In this document: piece by piece, positions 1,671-51,360 of the stretch
Layout of the letters: the number at the start of each line of letters is the position of its first letter
Numbering within the stretch: the stretch's first letter is position 1
From: Lophium mytilinum
Taxonomy: Eukaryota; Ascomycota; Dothideomycetes; Mytilinidiales; Mytilinidiaceae
Assembly: GCA_010093605.1 (NCBI GenBank)
Contig: MU004185.1
Span: 703,334-767,333, forward strand
Length of the DNA stretch: 64,000 nt
Reading direction: 5' to 3'
The notes under the pieces: model-generated
Databases searched by the model: none
What the model was told of the DNA's origin: nothing
Seen by the model: the letters and a program-made list of their open reading frames with translations, nothing else
Position numbers and translations under genes: made by a program

Positions 1671-3282
1671 TCAGATTCGCACGTAGTCCTGCTGCTGAGA
1701 AAGCCCGAGACCAATAATGTCGGAATCATCATCGATTCCCTCAGAGTCAAAGTCGTCGCTGTCCCCAAAGACCTCCTCATCGCTGGAAATGTCTTGGGAG
1801 TCATCATCGTCCGAGACCGGCAGGCTTCCCGCTGCAGCTGCCTTACTGCGGAGTTGGCTTGCACGATCGACATGGGGAAGACGACACTTCGCATTCCGGC
1901 ACATTCCCTTGTTAGCATAGTCAGGGCACTCAAACATATGACGGTCCGGGCAGTCGACGCCTTTGTCGCAGTATCCGAGGCGACCAAAAGCGCGGCAAAC
2001 TGGCGCAGTAGGGTTGATGCGAACGTGGGCATAGCGGCAGTTGGCGTTCGTGCAGTTGCCGCGGACGAAGTGAAGACATGCTGGAACGCGATGGGGGGTA
2101 GGAATGTGAGAAAGCTCACAGCCGTCGCCCAAAGCGCATTTGCCCTTCATCAAGAAATCCTTGCAAATCGCAAGCTTGTCAAAGTCATGTACGAACCGGC
2201 AGCTTGGACCTCTCGCACACGATCCTGTGGGTCGAAAGTTAGTGGTCCTCCAGAGTGGGAAAGAAAGATATGTATAGACGACGGCGAGCGATGGGGATGC
2301 AGGCAGGGGAGGAAAGGGGTTACCAGTTGGTGTGAAACGCGGGCAGAGCTCATCGACTTTTGGGGCTTCACGTCTCCTACAGAAAATTGTCAGCAGTTCT
2401 GATATGTTTTGGAGTAGCACACCATACTTTTTCCCTTTGACCAGGCCAGAACGATACATGTTTCCGTTCTTGCTCCGGACAAACATGACTCCAGCGATGG
2501 TGTGTCGCTTGGGCGTTATCTCAGTGGGGTCCCCTATATCAAGTTTTGTTATTCTTGCCAGGCCTTTGTAGGCGTGTTTCCACTCACGCGAGAGTCGCAG
2601 TAGTTTACTGCCCCCATCAACGACCTGGAATTGAGTAGCACCGATCGAGATGTTGTAGATGTCCGTAGACTTTCGTGTTGCACCGTGGGAGGAGTGGCGA
2701 GACGCGGTTGCAAAGTAATTGCTCAACTTGGCCTTTTCTCGAGCATCTTGGTCGCTCTGCTTTGACGCCGTGGTGTCTGCCATCGACCGGGCACGTTCTT
2801 TGCTAATCTGGTCGTACACCGAGGTATTGATCAGTTGCATGTGTCTGTCAGTCTTGGCGACCCAAGTGTTCGAATCCACTACGTCCATCTGGTGTGCCTC
2901 GCCGTTGGGAGGAGTGGCTGGGTTGCCGTTAAGGACGAGGGTGCGGTTCCGATGCGTTGAGTAGGGAAATTTAGCAACTCGTCCTCGGGGATAAGCGTAC
3001 GGATAACCACGCTGAGGGGCCCATGTTGGTGTGCCGCGTCCACGCCCGCGTCCTCGTCCATATCCTTCACCGCTAGTCAATATGGCGTCCTTCGGTGAGG
3101 CAGGTGAGTGTATAAAGTCCATACCGGGCGCAGGCCGGGGCGGACTCTGTGGCTGACCTTGCTTGTGAAGATTGATGCGACCTAGGGAGGAGTATATTAG
3201 GTCCGTATAGCAGAAGCGACAGAGTACACTATTCACCTGCAAGAGCCGCAATCTGGGCTTCTAGCTCAGCGGTATCCGTCAT
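1671..3282 (-). CDS. CCCH zinc-finger protein with five fingers (ZC3H3-like)
   Basis: Exons 3282-3237, 3181-2428, 2376-2324, 2224-1671; 468 aa. The start is MTDTAELEAQIAALAGRINL, obtained by splicing a 46-nt first exon. Five CCCH fingers lie in tandem over about residues 275-395: Cx8Cx5Cx3H, Cx8Cx5Cx3H, Cx7Cx4Cx3H, Cx8Cx5Cx3H, Cx8Cx4Cx3H. The N-terminus has a GRGRGRG tract; the tail is very acidic (SDDDDSQDISSDEE). Five fingers occur in both CPSF30/Yth1 and ZC3H3; the long N-terminal region and C-terminal position of the fingers favour the ZC3H3 type, a nuclear RNA-binding protein linked to mRNA polyadenylation and export. A continuous frame runs through introns 2 and 3, but splicing both restores finger 1 (CPRFTPTG/SCARGPSCRFVH). 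Divergent from the ATP synthase gene. Confidence 0.85.
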
Positions 3283-3877: not shown

Positions 3878-4788
3878 ATGGCTTCACGACTTGCAAGGAG
3901 CGCGGTTGGTCAGTATACACCTTCTCAGCCCATTGCAGCTGCCATTGGCCTCCTTGCTGACCCGTTATAGCCACCGCCCGCCTCCGCCCTTCCCTCCCCA
4001 TTCGCGCCATCCCGTCCATCACCGCGCAGCTCACCTCTGCCCGCTATGCATCCAACGTGCCCGTCGAGGACCCAAAGAAGAAGGCGCAGTCAATCTTAGA
4101 CTCGCTCCCGGGAAACAGCCTGATCTCCAAGGCCGCCATCCTCTCTGCCGGTGCCGGTGTCTCGATTGCTGCCATCAGCAACGAGATCTACGTCGTCAAC
4201 GAGGAGTCCATCGTCATGCTGAGCTTGTTGACCATTTTCTGGGCTGTCGGTCATTACGGAGGGCCTATGTACAAGGAGTGGGCTGAGGGCCAAACCGCCA
4301 AGATCAAGGGCATTTTGAACGCCGCGCGGGAGGACCATACTTCGGCTGTCAAGGCGCGAATTGAGAGTGTTCAGGACCTTGGGGGTGTCATTGACATCAC
4401 CAAGACTCTGTTCGAGGTTTCCAAGGTACGCATGTCAAGTACCCGGGCAAACCAGATTCATCCGTCGGGCCGATGATGCTAATGGAGTGGCAGGAAACCG
4501 CTCAACTCGAGGCTAAGGCATACGAGCTGGAGCAGAAGACCGCTCTTGCCGCCGAGGCCAAGACTGTCTTGGATTCCTGGGTGAGGTATGAGGGTCAGGT
4601 CAAGCAGAGGCAGCAGAAGGAGCTTGCCGAGGCTATCATTGCCAAGATCGAGAAGGAGCTTGAGAACCCCAATACTCTCAAGCAGATCCTTAACCAGAGC
4701 GTTGCTGATATTGAGAGTACGTACAGACATCCTCTTCCCTGAATCTACACACTAACAGAAACTAGGGATCGTGGCTACCAAGGCATAA
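3878..4788 (+). CDS. atp4: Mitochondrial F1Fo ATP synthase subunit 4 (subunit b)
   Basis: Exons 3878-3908, 3971-4425, 4494-4716, 4766-4788; 243 aa. Subunit b forms the peripheral stalk that holds the F1 head against the membrane sector in the mitochondrial inner membrane. The N-terminus MASRLARSAVATARLRPSL is Arg/Ser-rich without acids, a mitochondrial presequence, with likely cleavage near ARYAS/NVPVED. Two hydrophobic segments follow (AAILSAGAGVSIAAISNEIY and IVMLSLLTIFWAVGHYGG), then a long charged helix to the end (KQRQQKELAEAIIAKIEKEL). Intron 2 has a good branch site (GCTAAT) and ends GGCAG. The last exon codes only IVATKA. Length and order match the fungal family. Confidence 0.95.
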
Positions 4789-5066
4789 TCGCCATCAAAA
4801 CATCTCCTTTTTCAATTCAGCTCACTGTTAAATAAACCTGTGCCATAGCTATCCCCTTTCAATAGATTCCCGCCACAATTTTGAAAATCACGTTGACGTT
4901 CACATTTCGCGTCTCGGGTCAATTTCCCAGCAGTGTCATCTCACATCTAATAATACAGTCTTATTTACGAATACTTAACGAGTTTGATGAAAGTTCGATT
5001 CTGTCTCGCGGGTAGAGGTAAAGGGATGAAGGGAACGAAGAAAGAAGCTAGACGATAACAGCCAGC

Positions 5067-6504
5067 TCAGTCAGATGGGGACATCCCATTGCGATACAGC
5101 CATAGCCGACTGATGTCCTTGACCCTTGCCGGGTGCAACATACGACCAGGATCGAATTGTGACTCCGAAGACGCGATCTTGATAGGCAAAATAGGACTGT
5201 TGACGTCCTCCACAACCGCCACGGCCTCATCACTACCAGCACGGACAGTCGACTCTGCCCCTTCCCTTGCTGTCGACATTCCAGCTCCCACGATCTCTAC
5301 CTCCGAGTTCATGAAATCGCTATCCTCCAGAACACGCGAATCTGGTCCTAAGGGGAACATCGCGCTAAGGTAGTGCTGGTTGAGCAAGTGCCCGGAACCG
5401 TTACGCGTGAGCACATGGCCCATGTACCTGTTTCTCATGTTACGGAAGCTCAGGACGCCCCAACAGGCTACGAAGTCGCCGCTGTTGGCATAATGCTCGA
5501 TGTGGCGCACGGCTTTGTCTCCTGGGTTGGAACCTTTGCGTAGTTCGGCATTGTGCATGGACGAATAGCTCCGGTGCGGATTGTTGAAATGGTTGGATGC
5601 GTTGCCGAAGGTGTATATTTCGAGTTGTTGGAGGATGTCTTGTGGGACTAGGAGACTGTCAGTTATGGTGTTCTACACTGATCCCTCGTCAATGTTAGAA
5701 TATGGAAAGTAAGTTCACCGTTACATACCTTCTGCGAGCAGCCAGTCCAGAATCATTGCTCCTTCGATTCCACCTTGACTATGAAGGATAAGAACGACTT
5801 TCTTAAATCTTGCATCTAGCAATTTCTCCTTGATCAGAGCATACGAGCGCCGGATATCGTCTGTCGAGTAGCAAAAGTCCCTTTCGATGACGCACTGGAT
5901 CAAGTCGAAAAGAATGCCATATGTACGGTTGAGGACCCCAATTATCGGCCGACGAAAGGTTAAAGCAAGACGATCCACATTGCTTTGCAGCCAAAGGTGT
6001 CTGACGTTCCTTTTCTCAGTATCCATTCGTCATCCTAGGATTGAGCTTGTGGAGTACATACCCAGTGGCAACGCCATTCAGAAAGATCCAACACTCATCT
6101 TCATGTCGAGCGTCGGGACCGATGTTGACGTTGGACTTTACCGAGGTCGAGGTGCCATTCAGAATCCAGCTGATACTATGGACCAAGAGGAGAACAGTAG
6201 AAACGTAGAGTATAAATGATCCTACGGGGAACACCACAAACAGTGGTAAGGAAATCATGTAGACGGATTCTAGAACGAGAAGAAGGAACTGCAACACCAG
6301 GCAAATGAGGTTGGAAGGGGATTGGGGAGACATTTCGTCCGATTTGCTACTCGACCATGGCAGGAATACACCGGGGATAGAACGGAAGTTCTTGAAGAAA
6401 AGCGAGACATCGTAAACACAAAGACGAACTGGGCCTCCTGTGACTGGGGGTGGGGTCTCGTCGTCGGATCCCCCGATCTGGGATGGGAGCAAGGTAACTG
6501 CCAT
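5067..6504 (-). CDS. Membrane-anchored alpha/beta-hydrolase (lipase-like) protein
   Basis: Exons 6504-6062, 6000-5729, 5647-5067; 431 aa. The first exon gives a soluble N-terminus and two adjacent hydrophobic helices (about residues 66-90 and 88-112). After WIFLNGVATGHLWLQSNVDRL comes a lipase-like core with KKVVLILHSQGGIEG, where Ser222 of HSQGG is the expected nucleophile of an alpha/beta-hydrolase. A second conserved stretch is LEIYTFGNASNHFNNPHRSYSSMHN, followed by HYANSGDFVACWGVLSF. I recognise this as a conserved fungal family annotated as hypothetical or lipase-like; substrate is unknown. The full Ser-Asp-His triad cannot be fixed by eye. Converges on the ATP synthase gene with a 278-bp gap. 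Confidence 0.8.
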
Positions 6505-41480: not shown

Positions 41481-42217
41481 TAGTCGTTATCAGAACTTTA
41501 CCATTCATAGCTAGGTTCCATGGGCATAGGATGTGTGCTCTAGCGTTACCTCAGCTATAATGATTCATTCCCTGTGACAACTAACGGGTGCGTTCAACTT
41601 TAGGTAGATGAGACTCTCAAAGACACCTCGCTATTCTACTGACGCAATGCCCGCTCGAAGCCGTGCACCCTAGAGCAATAATCTCTACTTACAAATGCAT
41701 CTAGCAGTATCCATAGCTCTGCTGGGTGTACATAAAGGTGTCTCGTTATTTCACTATCCTCTAAAGGGATGCATCTAGTCTTACAGAAGGCTCATCTTTG
41801 CACCAATGGCACTACCAAGGCGGTCACTGTCTGAAGTGCCTCGATCCATTCTAGGAAATCGTACAACATCAGCTTTGAGTGATCAGAAGTCTCGTGCATC
41901 CATACGCTCAGAAAACAAGGTCTCATGTGCATAGAAACATATCTCAGAACGCACAGGATTCACAACAACACCCACCTCTTCCAATCACAGCAAATAGAAC
42001 ACCAGTTTAATTGCAGCTACAAACCAATAGGCCTAGCCGTTGGCGCAGTGACCATCTGATTATTGAGCCCCTGCCCCTGTGCCCTGCAGCCGAATCCTTG
42101 GGCCGCAGCAAGCACCCACCTGGGACTTTTCAACATTAACAACAAACACGACCCGCGACATATGGCACTACAAACCCCTCGGCGCCTGGGATTAATAAGA
42201 AACACTACCCGCGACAC

Positions 42218-45615: not shown

Positions 45616-48600
45616 ATGGCTGTCTGCGGGCGCCTAGTACGCCGCACGCCAGCTCTTCTTCGCCAATGCCGTTCTCCTGCTCCTCCAGCGGCATTCCGTG
45701 CTTTCTCTAGCGCATCGTCTCCATTCACTGCTCTGAGGGCTAGCTATGACTCAACACCTGCGTCCCGACAGCTGCGAGCTTTCTCCAAAATCGCCGCCTT
45801 CAATGCCTCAAACGCTACCCAGGAGGCTCCCAATGCCAAAGCTTACCTCGACAGCGGTGCTATTCTCGGCGCACGCAACCTTGTTGACGTCTCCAAGGTG
45901 CTCGTGATTGGTAGCGGAGGTCTCAGCATTGGCCAGGCAGGCGAGTTCGACTATTCAGGTACGTCTCACACAACCAGATCTCTGGAATAGCCCTATAACT
46001 GTCCCCAGGGTCACAAGCTCTCAAAGCGCTGAAGGAGGCCGGTGTCCGCTCCGTCCTTATCAACCCCAACATTGCCACGATCCAAACCTCGCACGTTCTC
46101 GCCGACGAAATCTATTACCTGCCCGTCACGCCCGAGTATGTCGAGTACGTTATCCAGAAGGAGCGGCCAGACGGCATATTCCTTAGCTTTGGTGGTCAGA
46201 CCGCCCTCAATCTCGGCGTCAACATGAACAAGAAAGGCCTCTTTGAGAAATACGGTGTCAAGGTCTTGGGGACGAGCATCAAAACCTTGGAAACGAGTGA
46301 AGACCGTGACCTCTTCGCCAAGGCTCTTGGGGAGATCGACATCCCAATTGCCGAATCCATTGCAGTGGGCACCGTGGACGCAGCACTGGACGCCGCAGAG
46401 AAAATCGGATACCCCATTATTGTACGTGCGGCATACGCCCTGGGTGGGCTGGGTTCTGGCTTTGCGAACGATGCGGAGGAACTCAGGAATTTGTCTGCAA
46501 GGTCATTGACACTTTCTTCGCAAATCTTGGTGGAGAAGTCATTGAAAGGATGGAAAGAGGCCGAATATGAAGTTGTCCGTGATGCCAGCGACAACTGCAT
46601 TACCGTCTGCAACATGGAAAACTTCGACCCCCTCGGCGTGCATACCGGTGACAGCATTGTCGTCTCTCCGAGTCAAACGTTCAGCGACGAAGAGTACCAC
46701 ATGCTCCGCTCTGCCGCAATCAAGATCGTTCGCCATCTTGGTGTAGTTGGCGAGTGCAATGTACAGTACGCGCTACAACCCGACGGGCTGGACTATAGGG
46801 TCATCGAGGTCAACGCCCGTCTATCAAGGTCTTCCGCGCTTGCCTCCAAAGCCACAGGCTATCCTCTCGCCTATACTGCCGCCAAAATTGGGCTCGGACA
46901 CACCCTCCCGGAACTCCCCAACGCTGTTACCAAGACCACCACGGCAAATTTTGAGCCCAGTCTGGACTACGTCGTCACTAAGATGCCTCGATGGGATCTA
47001 GCCAAGTTTCAACATGTCAAAAGGGACATTGGAAGTTCCATGAAGTCTGTGGGAGAAGTCATGGCAATTGGAAGAACATTTGAAGAATCCTTCCAGAAGG
47101 CTTGCCGACAGGTTGATCCCAAGTTCTTGGGCTTCCAGGGAGACAAATTCGAGAACTTGGACGACTCATTGAAGAATCCTACTGATCGCAGGTGGTTGGC
47201 CGTCGGCCAGGCTTTGATGCACGAAGGCTACACCGTGGACCGGGTTCATGACCTTACGAAGATAGACAAGTGGTTCCTCTACAAGCTGCAGAACATTGTG
47301 GATTGTACACACGAACTCGAAGACATAGGCAGCTTGTATGGCCTGAAGAAGGAGGTCATTCTGAAGGCGAAGAAGCTTGGATTTTCCGACCGACAAATCG
47401 CCAAGGCCGTCAATACAACCGAAGACGAAGTTCGAGCGCGTCGGAAGGGTTTTGGCATCAAGCCTTGGGTCAAAAAGATTGATACTCTAGCCGCTGAATT
47501 TCCTGCAGACACTAACTACCTATACACGACATACAATGCCTCGTCTCACGACGTGACCTTCGACGACCATGGAACGCTTGTTCTTGGGAGTGGAGTTTAC
47601 CGCATCGGAAGTTCCGTGGAGTTCGATTGGTGCGCTGTAAATGCTGCTACCTCACTGGCAAAGCTCGGCAAGAAGACTGTTGTGATTAATGTAAGTTTGA
47701 TTTTTGTTTTTCTCATGTCTCCTGGAAGTTCGTGCCGCCATTCTGGACGCCAAAAACTCGACACACTCACCCAGGACTGGATCTCGGGTGCACATATGTT
47801 TGCCACCACCTGAGGGACCTCAACGACTTTCCGAGTCTTTCAAAGCGAACACCTTTGGTCTCGGTCATTTTTCTGAGAATGGACTGAGGCACCTCAAGCG
47901 GTGGCAGACAGACATATGGACTGGAGGTTCATGCGACCTCACTGTCTCGTTTGCACATCTGTCTGCCACCGCTTGACTGGCTTCAACAACTTTTCAAGTC
48001 GCCCAAAGCGAACACCTTCTGTCTCATTCAGATTCCTGATAATGGACTGGGCCACCTCAAACAGTGGCACCACAGGTGGGAGTCTGGACGGTCTTACCCT
48101 GGGATGGGCGCGCCTTCCTTCCAGACTCCCACCTTCCTCCTGGGAGGACACCCTCACGTCAGGATTCTCAACAAGATGGCCTCTCTCAACCCTCACACTC
48201 TGCCCACTTGTTCTGCCAAATCCGCCTTCTCACTCACATTTGGTCTGAATCGAGTCCCTTCATCTTCCTTGTAACTGGTTTGAAGCGAGCCTCGGCGGAT
48301 AGGGCATCTTCGAAAAGTCCTTTCCAATCCTCAGCCGTCGCTGTCAGTTGGCCTCTAACCAGTTTGAACGGAACTCCTCCAGCTCCTCACTATGGAGTCT
48401 TGCGGTGCTACTCAAGCCCAATGGCACTGGTCGCTGTTCATTGTGGCTCTCTGGTGCTGCCTGGACGATACTCCTTTCTATCAGAAGCATCTCCTCTTTG
48501 CTCAGTTCTTCCCGACTCTCTATGAACTCGAGTCGGTCGCTTCTGGAGCTTCTATTGTCTTTGCAGCTGGTCTCTTTGAGGTCCTCATGTCTACCACCTC

Positions 48601-51360
48601 ACCTGCACCTCACTTCTTCAAGACTTTACCAACAAACTTCTCCTCTCGCTGGGCTATCTATGTCATTGTACTTGAAAAAGGACTTTCTCGCCCCCGCGTG
48701 TACATCGGTTCCGGCACCTCAACGTCAGGAGGCGTCCGCGGCCGGCTTCAACAATACGACGATGGCCTTTGTATCCCCAAATTCGTTCAGTCTTCCCTAG
48801 ACGAAGGGTTCGAAATGGTCCATAAAGGACTTCTCTGCTGGATTCCCATACCGCCCCCCGCATTGGTACCTACCTATCGCCTTCTTTTTGTCGCTCTTGA
48901 AGCTACTTTCACCTACATGTTCTGGACCATGAAGGCCACCAAGGGTGATTATGGGATGGGGCATATGTGCCTTTGGGATCGTACCACATTAGCCTACGAC
49001 GGATTGTGCTCTCACTGCTCCTTGAACGAGGGCATCCGAGGCGATTTCGACCTATCTGCCGAAGAACTCGAGGCCCTCGCCGTTGTGAAAGAGGAAAAAC
49101 GCCTTCTGATCAAAGCTGAAAATGCTACCAATTGGCACTTCAAGCAGATGGAGACCAACTACGATGATTACATAGGTTACAACGTCGAGAGGAAAGCCAG
49201 ATGGAGAGCTGAGAACCCAGGACATGACGCAGCAGTTCAAGCAAGGCGCATCGAGGAGGCTCGTGCTGCACTTACCTTCCATTGTGTACCATGCGACCTC
49301 TCATATGGCACCAAGAATTCACTGGACATTCACCTGGCGTCTGCTATGCATTCCCGGAAGCTGCAGGAGACCGAAGACACGCCGTTCAAATGCGGACCCT
49401 GCAACAAGGCCTTTGCGAACCAGCAGAATTTGAACCGCCACCTCCCGACCGCACGCCACAAAGCAAACGTGGCGGCCGCCCTCCCGAGCCCTGCGCTCGG
49501 ATAGGGGGGTAATGAAGAAAGCTCTTTTTGGACCCATTTTGGACTTCCATCATACTCACTCAGCACACCTTCCCGCCGCCGTCTGAGGTGGCCCGACGAC
49601 TTTTCCAGCATCGCCAACCCCAGCATTTCCCATCCCGCTCAGCCCGCCGAAGGCCTCCTGACGGCGGCAAGCCGCTGTGCGCAAAAGCCCTTTTTGGACC
49701 CCCGGACGTTGGACGACCTGCGACATTTTTTTTTGTATCACATTGTGTCAATCGCTAACTTGAGACCAAAAGTTCAATCCCGAAACCGTCAGCACAGGTA
49801 TAACGATTTTTACTCAATTACTAAAAATTTATCTAATTTACATTTTAGATTTTGATATCGCGGACAAATTGTATTTCGAAGAACTTAGCTACGAAAGAGT
49901 TATGGACATCTACGAGCTCGAATCAGCTAGCGGCGTCGTTGTGTCTGTCGGTGGTCAACTGCCCCAGAACATTGCCCTGAAACTGCAAGAGACTGGGAAG
50001 GCTAAAGTCCTCGGAACTGATCCGAACGATATCGACAAAGCCGAAGATCGCCACAAGTTCTCGCAGATCCTCGATTCGATAGGCGTCGACCAACCCGCTT
50101 GGAAAGAGCTGACCTCATACGAAGAGGCGCAGGCTTTTGCCAATTCCGTTGGATACCCTGTGCTTGTTCGCCCAAGCTACGTTCTGTCTGGAGCTGCCAT
50201 GACGGTGATCCGGTCCGAAGATGAGCTGAAGGACAAGTTGTTGGCCGCGAGCGAAGTCTCTCCCGACCATCCCGTAGTGATCACTCAGTACATCGAAGGC
50301 GCTGAAGAGATTGACGTTGATGCAGTCGCGTCGATCGGAAAAGTACTAATACACGCCGTGAGCGAGCACGTGGAGAACGCGGGTGTGCACTCCGGTGACG
50401 CAACACTCGTCTTACCTCCCGTAAACCTGAGCAAGCGTACCCTTGAGAGGGTCAAGGAGATCGCCGACAAAGTGGCCAAAGCATGGAGCATTACCGGACC
50501 ATTCAATATGCAAATCATCAAAGCAGCAGACCCCGAAGGCGGAGAACCGAAGCTGAAGGTCATCGAATGCAATCTGCGCGCTTCGAGGTCGTTTCCATTC
50601 GTCAGCAAGGTTCTCGGCACAAATTTCATCGACGTTGCCACAAAGGCTCTCGTTGGAAGGGAAGTTCCAGAGCCAGTAGATCTCATGGCAGTGAAAAGGG
50701 ATTATCTGGCAACGAAAGTGCCGCAATTCTCTTGGACCCGCCTTGCAGGCGCAGACCCTTATCTTGGTGTTGAAATGGCTAGCACAGGAGAGATGGCCTG
50801 CTTCGGAACAAATCTCGTCGAGGCATACTGGGCTGCAATGCAATCCACCATGAACTTCCGCCTCCCACAACCTGGAGAAGGTTTATTGTTTGGAGGCGAC
50901 ACTACTAGAATGGAGCTTGCCAAGATTGTAGACTACCTCAACCCCCTCGGCTACAAACTGTACGCCGCAAATCAAGAGGTAAAGCAACACCTAGAGCAAT
51001 CCTCCAATGACGGAAGTGTCAAGGTGGAAGTTATTGAGTTCCCCGTTGAAGATAAGAGGGCTCTCCGAGAAGTGTTCGCGAAGTATGATGTCCGTGGAGT
51101 GTTCAACCTGGCCAAAACACGTGGTGCCTCTCTCGTAGACGAGGACTATGTGATGCGCAGGAACGCAGTCGATTTTGGTGTGCCTTTGTTCATGGAACCT
51201 AAAGTGAGTATACCTGCTTGTTCTTCCAGCCTGCTTGCTAACAAACACCCAGACTGCGGTCCTCTTCGCTCAATGTATGAGCGAGAAGCTGCCACTCAAA
51301 GACGGAATCCCCAGTGAAGTGCGCCCATGGAGTGATTTCATCGGCGGACGACCGTTGTAG
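45616..51360 (+). CDS. cpa2: Arginine-specific carbamoyl-phosphate synthetase, large subunit (mitochondrial), with an endonuclease-bearing intron
   Basis: Exons 45616-45958, 46009-47690, 49773-49797 (25 nt), 49849-51203, 51253-51360; 1,170 aa. It makes carbamoyl phosphate from ammonia (from the small subunit), bicarbonate and two ATP, for arginine synthesis. The Arg-rich start [20 protein letters not shown] is a mitochondrial presequence. Two homologous ATP-grasp halves begin at [28 protein letters not shown] and [37 protein letters not shown]; each has its GGQ motif ([27 protein letters not shown]). Splicing of introns 3 and 4 gives [24 protein letters not shown], an exact family match. There is no aspartate transcarbamylase fusion, so it is the arginine, not pyrimidine, enzyme. 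Intron 3 is 2,082 nt and carries another gene; all others are about 50 nt. Confidence 0.95.
47782..48072 (+). repeat. Imperfect tandem duplication, ~163-bp unit
   Basis: Unit 1 (from 47782) and unit 2 (from 47945) share blocks in order: TCTCGxxTGCACATxTGTxTGCC, CTTCAACAACTTTTC-like, CAAAGCGAACACCTT, AATGGACTGxGxCACCTCAA and AxCGGTGGCA-like. The second unit breaks off near 48072. It is noncoding and upstream of the nuclease-like ORF. Confidence 0.75.
48074..48134. repeat. Perfect 15-bp inverted repeat with 31-nt loop
   Basis: Arms AGGTGGGAGTCTGGA (48074-48088) and TCCAGACTCCCACCT (48120-48134) are exact reverse complements. It follows directly after the tandem duplication, so it may mark an element end or form an RNA hairpin in the pre-mRNA. 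Confidence 0.85.
48587..49504 (+). CDS. GIY-YIG nuclease-like protein with two C2H2 zinc fingers, nested in a cpa2 intron
   Basis: 305 aa, intact and intronless. GIY-YIG domain: [24 protein letters not shown] has the two motif halves as AIY and YIG, followed by the conserved Arg in [11 protein letters not shown] and a candidate catalytic Glu in [18 protein letters not shown] Cys/His segment follows ([26 protein letters not shown]), then a charged helical linker and two C2H2 fingers, each Cx2Cx12Hx5H ([23 protein letters not shown] and [23 protein letters not shown]). This is nuclease plus DNA-binding fingers, the layout of a homing endonuclease. The frame is open upstream to a Met at 48392, but the added 65 residues are hydrophobic and family-unlike, so I chose Met 48587. 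How the ORF is expressed from inside a sense-strand intron is unclear. Domain call is firm; activity and mobility are inference. Confidence 0.8.
   Translation: MSTTSPAPHFFKTLPTNFSSRWAIYVIVLEKGLSRPRVYIGSGTSTSGGVRGRLQQYDDGLCIPKFVQSSLDEGFEMVHKGLLCWIPIPPPALVPTYRLLFVALEATFTYMFWTMKATKGDYGMGHMCLWDRTTLAYDGLCSHCSLNEGIRGDFDLSAEELEALAVVKEEKRLLIKAENATNWHFKQMETNYDDYIGYNVERKARWRAENPGHDAAVQARRIEEARAALTFHCVPCDLSYGTKNSLDIHLASAMHSRKLQETEDTPFKCGPCNKAFANQQNLNRHLPTARHKANVAAALPSPALG
49520..49701 (+). repeat. Short direct repeat and inverted repeat after the nuclease-like ORF
   Basis: AGCTCTTTTTGGACCC (49520-49535) and AGCCCTTTTTGGACCC (49686-49701) differ at one base. Between them GCCGCCGTC (49575-49583) pairs with GACGGCGGC (49660-49668). 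These may be the 3' end of the mobile unit. Confidence 0.65.

Follow-up and report, generated by a model that had tools for sequence, protein, structure and literature searches.

A zinc-finger gene with GIY-YIG-like motifs beside MITE-like palindromes in a predicted spliceosomal intron of a fungal carbamoyl-phosphate synthase gene

Introduction

GIY-YIG homing endonucleases occur in group I introns, among them those of phage T4 and of fungal mitochondria. An association with spliceosomal introns was reported for mirusviruses in November 2025, and the spliceosomal homing introns concerned were named 'shintrons'; according to the accessible part of that report they hold more than 2,000 genes, including 334 endonucleases, 132 of which are GIY-YIG, and the association is called previously unobserved (PMC12768974). 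An earlier note on the DNA studied here knew of no described example of such an arrangement; for viruses, these mirusvirus introns, which carry homing nucleases of GIY-YIG and other types, now provide one, as far as the accessible text goes (PMC12768974). For cellular nuclear genomes, no recognisable report of such an intron was found in the literature accessible to a search that lay mostly outside subscription journals, and no nuclear fungal GIY-YIG protein was recognised in the accessible text of the literature matches listed.

Several other systems bear on the locus. In the available sections of a study of the Faustovirus capsid gene, five group I introns are described together with other, potentially spliceosomal ones, and GIY-YIG ORFs lie in two introns (PMC6247863). 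Mycosphaerella graminicola harbours families of MITEs (short palindromic non-autonomous DNA elements) with 5-6-bp duplications, and the same source, in its accessible portion, mentions Penelope-like elements with GIY-YIG (PMC4522978). Introner-like elements in fungi are treated in the accessible part of PMC4457414. One further paper, PMC4469406, led nowhere, as its visible text concerns mitochondria. Here we describe a gene with GIY-YIG-like motifs nested in an intron of Lophium mytilinum; "the window" denotes the whole stretch of DNA that was analysed, 64,000 nucleotides of contig MU004185.1.

Results

The host gene and its long intron

Removal of four introns (50, 2082, 51 and 49 nt) from the host gene, which we take to be cpa2 (Table 1), left a single ORF of 1,170 aa that no stop codon interrupts. 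The PDB match itself is named carbamoyl-phosphate synthase: the 271 aa flanking the junction of the long intron matched the mitochondrial enzyme at E = 2.4e-134, and the junction was ungapped in both carbamoyl-phosphate synthase alignments printed. Three further large-chain sequences in PDB matched the junction region at 5e-104 to 2.4e-102 (E values only). Only one of the four introns is long (47691-49772); it starts with GTAAGT at 47691 and ends with AAG at 49772, a branch-like CTAAC begins 18 nt before its end, and its site is in phase 0 within a conserved stretch (VVIN/FNPETV). The earlier note had placed the ORF on the sense strand of the only long intron of cpa2 and had the insertion splitting a conserved stretch of the synthetase, and both statements are borne out by the spliced CDS and the junction alignment.

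Rfam analysis of 47600-49900 returned seven matches up to E 5, none of which reached the gathering score or was a group I or group II intron. With no catalytic RNA core matched, a group I or II intron is ruled out, and the GT-AG boundaries together with the absent group I/II signature identify the long intron, from its sequence, as spliceosomal; it is thus predicted to be spliced out of cpa2. The nested ORF was also considered as an unspliced part of cpa2. The frame of exon 2 stops at 47813, and this stop and the junction alignment therefore exclude such a segment. As a separate observation, two introns separated by a 25-nt exon, the long one and one of 51 nt (18% GC), interrupt the conserved NPETVSTD stretch (exon and short intron, 49773-49848).

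Table 1. Positions of the features in the window.
Feature	Position	Strand	Exons or details	Basis
Host gene, taken to be cpa2	45616..51360	+	exons 45616-45958, 46009-47690, 49773-49797, 49849-51203, 51253-51360	spliced CDS, PDB junction alignment
Long predicted spliceosomal intron	47691..49772	+	2,082 nt, GTAAGT...CTAAC...AAG	sequence, Rfam
First palindromic MITE-like copy	47734..47919	+	left end near 47739 by eye	nhmmer E = 1.4e-18
Second palindromic MITE-like copy	47941..48069	+		nhmmer E = 1.2e-25
Nested ORF	48392..49504	+	370 aa, GIY-YIG-like motifs and two C2H2 fingers	ORF list, Pfam, paralog similarity
GIY-YIG-like motif region	48653..48901	+	AIY ... YIG ... R ... E, residues 23-105 of 305-aa form	motif level only
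Two C2H2 fingers	49277..49462	+	CX2CX12HX5H by sequence reading	Pfam residues 296-320, 332-357 of 370-aa form
Possible third, very degenerate palindrome copy	49507..49607	-	not significant	nhmmer 1.6 bits

The nested ORF and its zinc fingers

Among 2000 Markov surrogates of the cpa2 intron, a sense ORF reached 305 aa or more in two and 370 aa or more in one. Pfam analysis of the 370-aa ORF revealed significant C2H2 fingers (zf-C2H2_jaz, 3.3e-8; zf-met, 3.5e-6), and reverse transcriptase was absent among its 15 Pfam matches, this ORF alone being scanned. PHROGs and NCBIfam gave the nested protein weak, unrelated names only (best, LigD_PE_dom at 0.0066), and among the 60 of 145 matches listed from a PDB search by sequence, the matched residues all fell in the finger region. 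Codon scoring favoured the ORF's own frame (0.103), and one antisense frame was also positive (0.051). A scan for bacterial promoters and terminators, uninformative for a fungus, returned none of either.

The intact ORF described in the earlier note is confirmed, and its two fingers are upheld by Pfam; the length of 305 aa given there is corrected, the ORF being 370 aa from the ATG at 48392. The shorter form starts at 48587 and lacks residues 33-65 of the longer one. These residues resemble the broken paralog described below (tblastn against 1.5 kb, 8e-6, 29.6 bits), and none of 500 shuffles matched that score, the best reaching 29.3; the match is in a different frame from the GIY part of the paralog. 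The N-terminal similarity to the paralog therefore favours the 370-aa start, and expression would presumably proceed from the ORF's own start.

Is the nested protein a GIY-YIG nuclease?

The motif order (G/A)IY..YIG..R..E was found in 12 of 200,000 protein shuffles in its strict form and in 455 of 200,000 in a looser one, patterns that were chosen after the sequence was seen. No GIY-YIG model in Pfam, PHROGs or NCBIfam matched the nested protein. A home-made profile of 25 phage-type GIY-YIG sequences (6 from T4 and 19 from IMG/VR) scored it at 1.6 bits, which 36 of 2000 shuffles equalled, and produced only fragmentary alignments (residues 35-45 and 191-207), the paralog fragment not being reported at all. 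AlphaFold2 predictions of the 305-aa form alone (mean pLDDT 31.9) and of 115 aa with one paralog fragment (mean pLDDT 36.5) were both too poor for a fold search. Since the label rests on motif order, with unsupportive profiles and failed structure predictions, we call the protein GIY-YIG-like: the motif order named by the earlier note stands, and membership of the family receives no support from Pfam, PHROGs, NCBIfam or our own profile, or from the low-confidence AlphaFold2 models. Judging from its motifs, the protein may have nuclease activity.

MITE-like palindromic repeats

Most of the first 380 nt of the cpa2 intron consists of two repeat copies, identified with an nhmmer profile that was built from 48 other copies and excluded those of the window. 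The first copy begins about 43-48 nt inside the intron, the second is 78% identical to it over 125 nt, and together the dispersed palindromes (47734-48069) account for roughly one sixth of the intron's length, on its 5' side. Elsewhere in the genome, the intron's DNA finds its best single match on C16 (79% over 148 bases), and the window contains one further match to the family, of at least 9 bits, at 41824-41888. Across the genome, the 16-base core with up to 3 mismatches had 780 + 737 matches against 354 + 414 for the reversed control, and the exact core occurred at 44 places, 2 of them in the cpa2 intron; the arm pattern had 83 + 74 matches against 0 + 0 for its control. Because both arms of a single copy can match, the number of copies is lower than that of matches, and the family likely numbers a few hundred copies at most.

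The repeat consensus is 236 bp long with inverted ends CACGC..GCGTG. Among 30 full-length, distinct places printed, inspection by eye revealed clean 5-bp target duplications at 7, the other 23 not being scored systematically; the copies at L020 and L047 are without one. By eye, the L020 copy sits inside an apparent intron and the L019 and L021 copies sit outside genes. Copies of the family were also noted at L061, L067, L056, L060, L034, L021, L037 and other loci.

Neither the right edge of the insert nor a target duplication around it was found in the cpa2 intron, and the palindrome 3' of the window ORF was not significant against shuffles (p = 0.14 and 0.5). A residual intron of 104 nt, obtained if the insert ended at 49716, is for these reasons a guess. 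Among local-alignment controls, one of three regions, inside the ORF, reached p = 0.040. Two stretches, L121 and L122, were considered as long forms of the repeat with a transposase inside and rejected; separate MITEs surround their ORFs instead, which are 353 and 366 aa long, host-gene-like and each framed by two copies of the family. A transposase was sought in two stretches only.

A broken second copy

Besides the ORF itself, a protein-level search across all 24 contigs of the genome (43.2 Mb) found one related place, about 362 kb away on the same contig and matched by two separate segments (E = 2e-6 and 1.2e-4). Four further matches were weak (E 0.165-0.412, query residues 277-358), and a candidate third remnant at C17 (E 0.049) was dropped, the frames there holding no related protein. 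The second copy (L018, about 4614-5461) is interrupted by stops and frame changes. It is intergenic, 3' of a gene that is presumably HSP70 and whose coding end is near L018:3924 by eye, so that the sole relative found in the ORF's own genome is 3' of that gene and none is in a cpa2-like target. An N-terminal stretch, GIY, GVRGR and a GLCSH...EALAV block are recognisable in the broken copy, the fingers weakly so; it retains GIY and GVRGR and has YTS in place of YIG.

Over the 63 codons of two conserved blocks, one of which holds the paralog's stop, the two copies differ at 25, 15 and 45 first, second and third positions, respectively. The p-value for the excess at third positions over the rest (Fisher p = 2.5e-7) overstates it, because the blocks were selected by protein similarity, which itself lowers the differences at positions 1 and 2; the pattern suggests past protein constraint during the divergence of both copies. 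In the broken copy, a piece resembling the Glu-bearing helix of the window ORF precedes the GIY part (L018:4614-4733, E 0.009), so that the order of parts may differ between the two copies. At the DNA level, L018:4300-5600 matches itself only, and direct alignment of the window locus with the L018 locus is weak.

Stretches with a weaker resemblance to the repeat family than those in the intron flank the broken paralog, with 9.2 and 18.1 bits before it and 14.5 bits after it. They stand out from shuffles (p 0/300, 0.003 and 0.003), and six 64-kb shuffles gave no match of at least 9 bits; the background in real sequence is 81 separate matches of at least 9 bits in 248 kb, mostly fetched for holding the repeat. 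These data make a link between gene and repeats suggestive, not proven. Elsewhere at L018, an apparent HSP70 intron (3085-3260) possibly holds a MITE-like palindrome (17.1 bits; p = 0.033, no better than one control), and tandem units of about 115-120 nt were seen by eye downstream of the broken paralog (5600-6160).

An intact free-standing parent gene was not found in the genome by six-frame searches, which can miss split or diverged genes. Six peptide patterns, which reach close relatives only, yielded six pattern matches and no relatives in bacterial and archaeal genomes, and no pattern match in viral contigs.

Discussion

The reading we favour, with a probability of roughly 55%, is that a repeat-borne gene, mobile or once mobile, landed in a short ordinary intron of cpa2 and is tolerated there by splicing. 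The intron would have received transposon-like DNA, that is, palindromic MITE-like repeats and a zinc-finger gene with GIY-YIG-like motifs, and the host would tolerate this insert because the spliceosome would remove it together with the intron. The nested gene, putatively mobile, would belong to a small family whose members move, or formerly moved, together with the palindromic repeats, either as cargo of a transposase whose cuts are staggered by 5 bases or via breaks introduced by the gene's own nuclease. The dispersed palindromes at the 5' end of the intron indicate insertion of repeat-borne DNA, presumably into an intron that was already present. Support also comes from the dispersed family, the repeats near both copies of the gene, the third-position excess and the copy in the apparent intron at L020. 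Counting against it, MITE pairs also frame the host-gene-like stretches at L121 and L122, neither the right edge nor a duplication was found, real sequence holds background matches to the family as well, and the two loci match weakly as DNA.

The earlier note had gone further and proposed homing. Its intact gene, nested within a conserved gene in an intron predicted to be spliceosomal, is confirmed; homing receives no support here, the one related copy being intergenic and the dispersed palindromes at the 5' end pointing to an insert carried by repeats. A spliceosomal homing intron, whose nuclease would cut intron-free cpa2 at VVIN/FNPETV so that repair copies the whole intron in, strikes us as quite improbable, although an intact ORF occupies the only long intron at a phase-0 site in a conserved stretch, the GIY-YIG-like motif order recurred in only 12 of 200,000 shuffles, the fingers could putatively bind DNA, and an equal layout is reported for mirusviruses in the accessible text of PMC12768974. 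Against it, the only relative found lies outside any cpa2-like gene, dispersed repeats occupy the 5' part of the intron, and profiles do not support the nuclease family. We are correspondingly doubtful that the locus is a cellular spliceosomal homing intron in which a nuclear selfish gene, GIY-YIG-like with zinc fingers, has teamed up with genome-wide palindromic repeats, and there is a slim chance that such a pairing corresponds, in eukaryotes, to a nuclease gene on which a swarm of palindromes depends.

Two further accounts dispense with a mobile nuclease gene or with a pre-existing intron. The nested ORF might be a duplicated host zinc-finger gene that entered the intron by chance, is not mobile, and now serves a host role or decays. 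We consider this unlikely: the third-position excess suggests past protein constraint, and MITEs near other genes could make the repeats incidental, whereas the six-frame searches found no intact free-standing parent (within their reach for split or diverged genes) and family-like repeats lie near both copies. That the repeat is an introner-like element, itself creating introns and bearing a gene in this copy, would agree with the repeat copies in the cpa2 intron and the apparent intron at L020, and introner-like elements are known from Dothideomycetes, as the accessible part of PMC4457414 has it. The start of the repeat some 43-48 nt inside the intron, together with the L019 and L021 copies lying outside genes by eye, makes this account very unlikely.

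If the favoured reading of repeat-borne cargo is right, the locus represents a zinc-finger family with nuclease-like motifs, unnamed in the libraries scanned and adjoining a MITE-like family, and splicing keeps the inserted gene harmless to cpa2. Should homing be true instead, with intron-free alleles of kin gaining the whole intron, the idea drawn from mirusviruses would extend to a cellular genome, a cellular nuclear spliceosomal homing intron would be new, and a testable route of intron gain would be at hand.

The locus can be compared with several described systems. Like the Penelope-like elements with GIY-YIG mentioned in the accessible portion of PMC4522978, it would pair such a motif with mobility in a eukaryotic nuclear genome; it differs from them in its 370-aa ORF without reverse transcriptase among its Pfam matches. 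As in MITEs, the arms are palindromic, the copies are many and scattered, and 5-bp duplications occur (7 of 30 places, by eye), whereas here a gene stands beside the palindromes. The order (G/A)IY-YIG-R-E and a possible DNA-binding C-terminus recall the GIY-YIG endonucleases of group I introns; unlike those, the protein has no profile match and carries C2H2 fingers, and Rfam gives no self-splicing intron. From mirusvirus shintrons it differs in its probable place on a cellular fungal chromosome, in the repeats within the intron and in the intergenic paralog, and also in that its nuclease family is recognised at the motif level only and its target specificity is putative. What it has in common with shintrons, as far as the accessible text describes them, is a GT-AG intron without a group I/II signature that contains a gene with nuclease-like motifs (PMC12768974).
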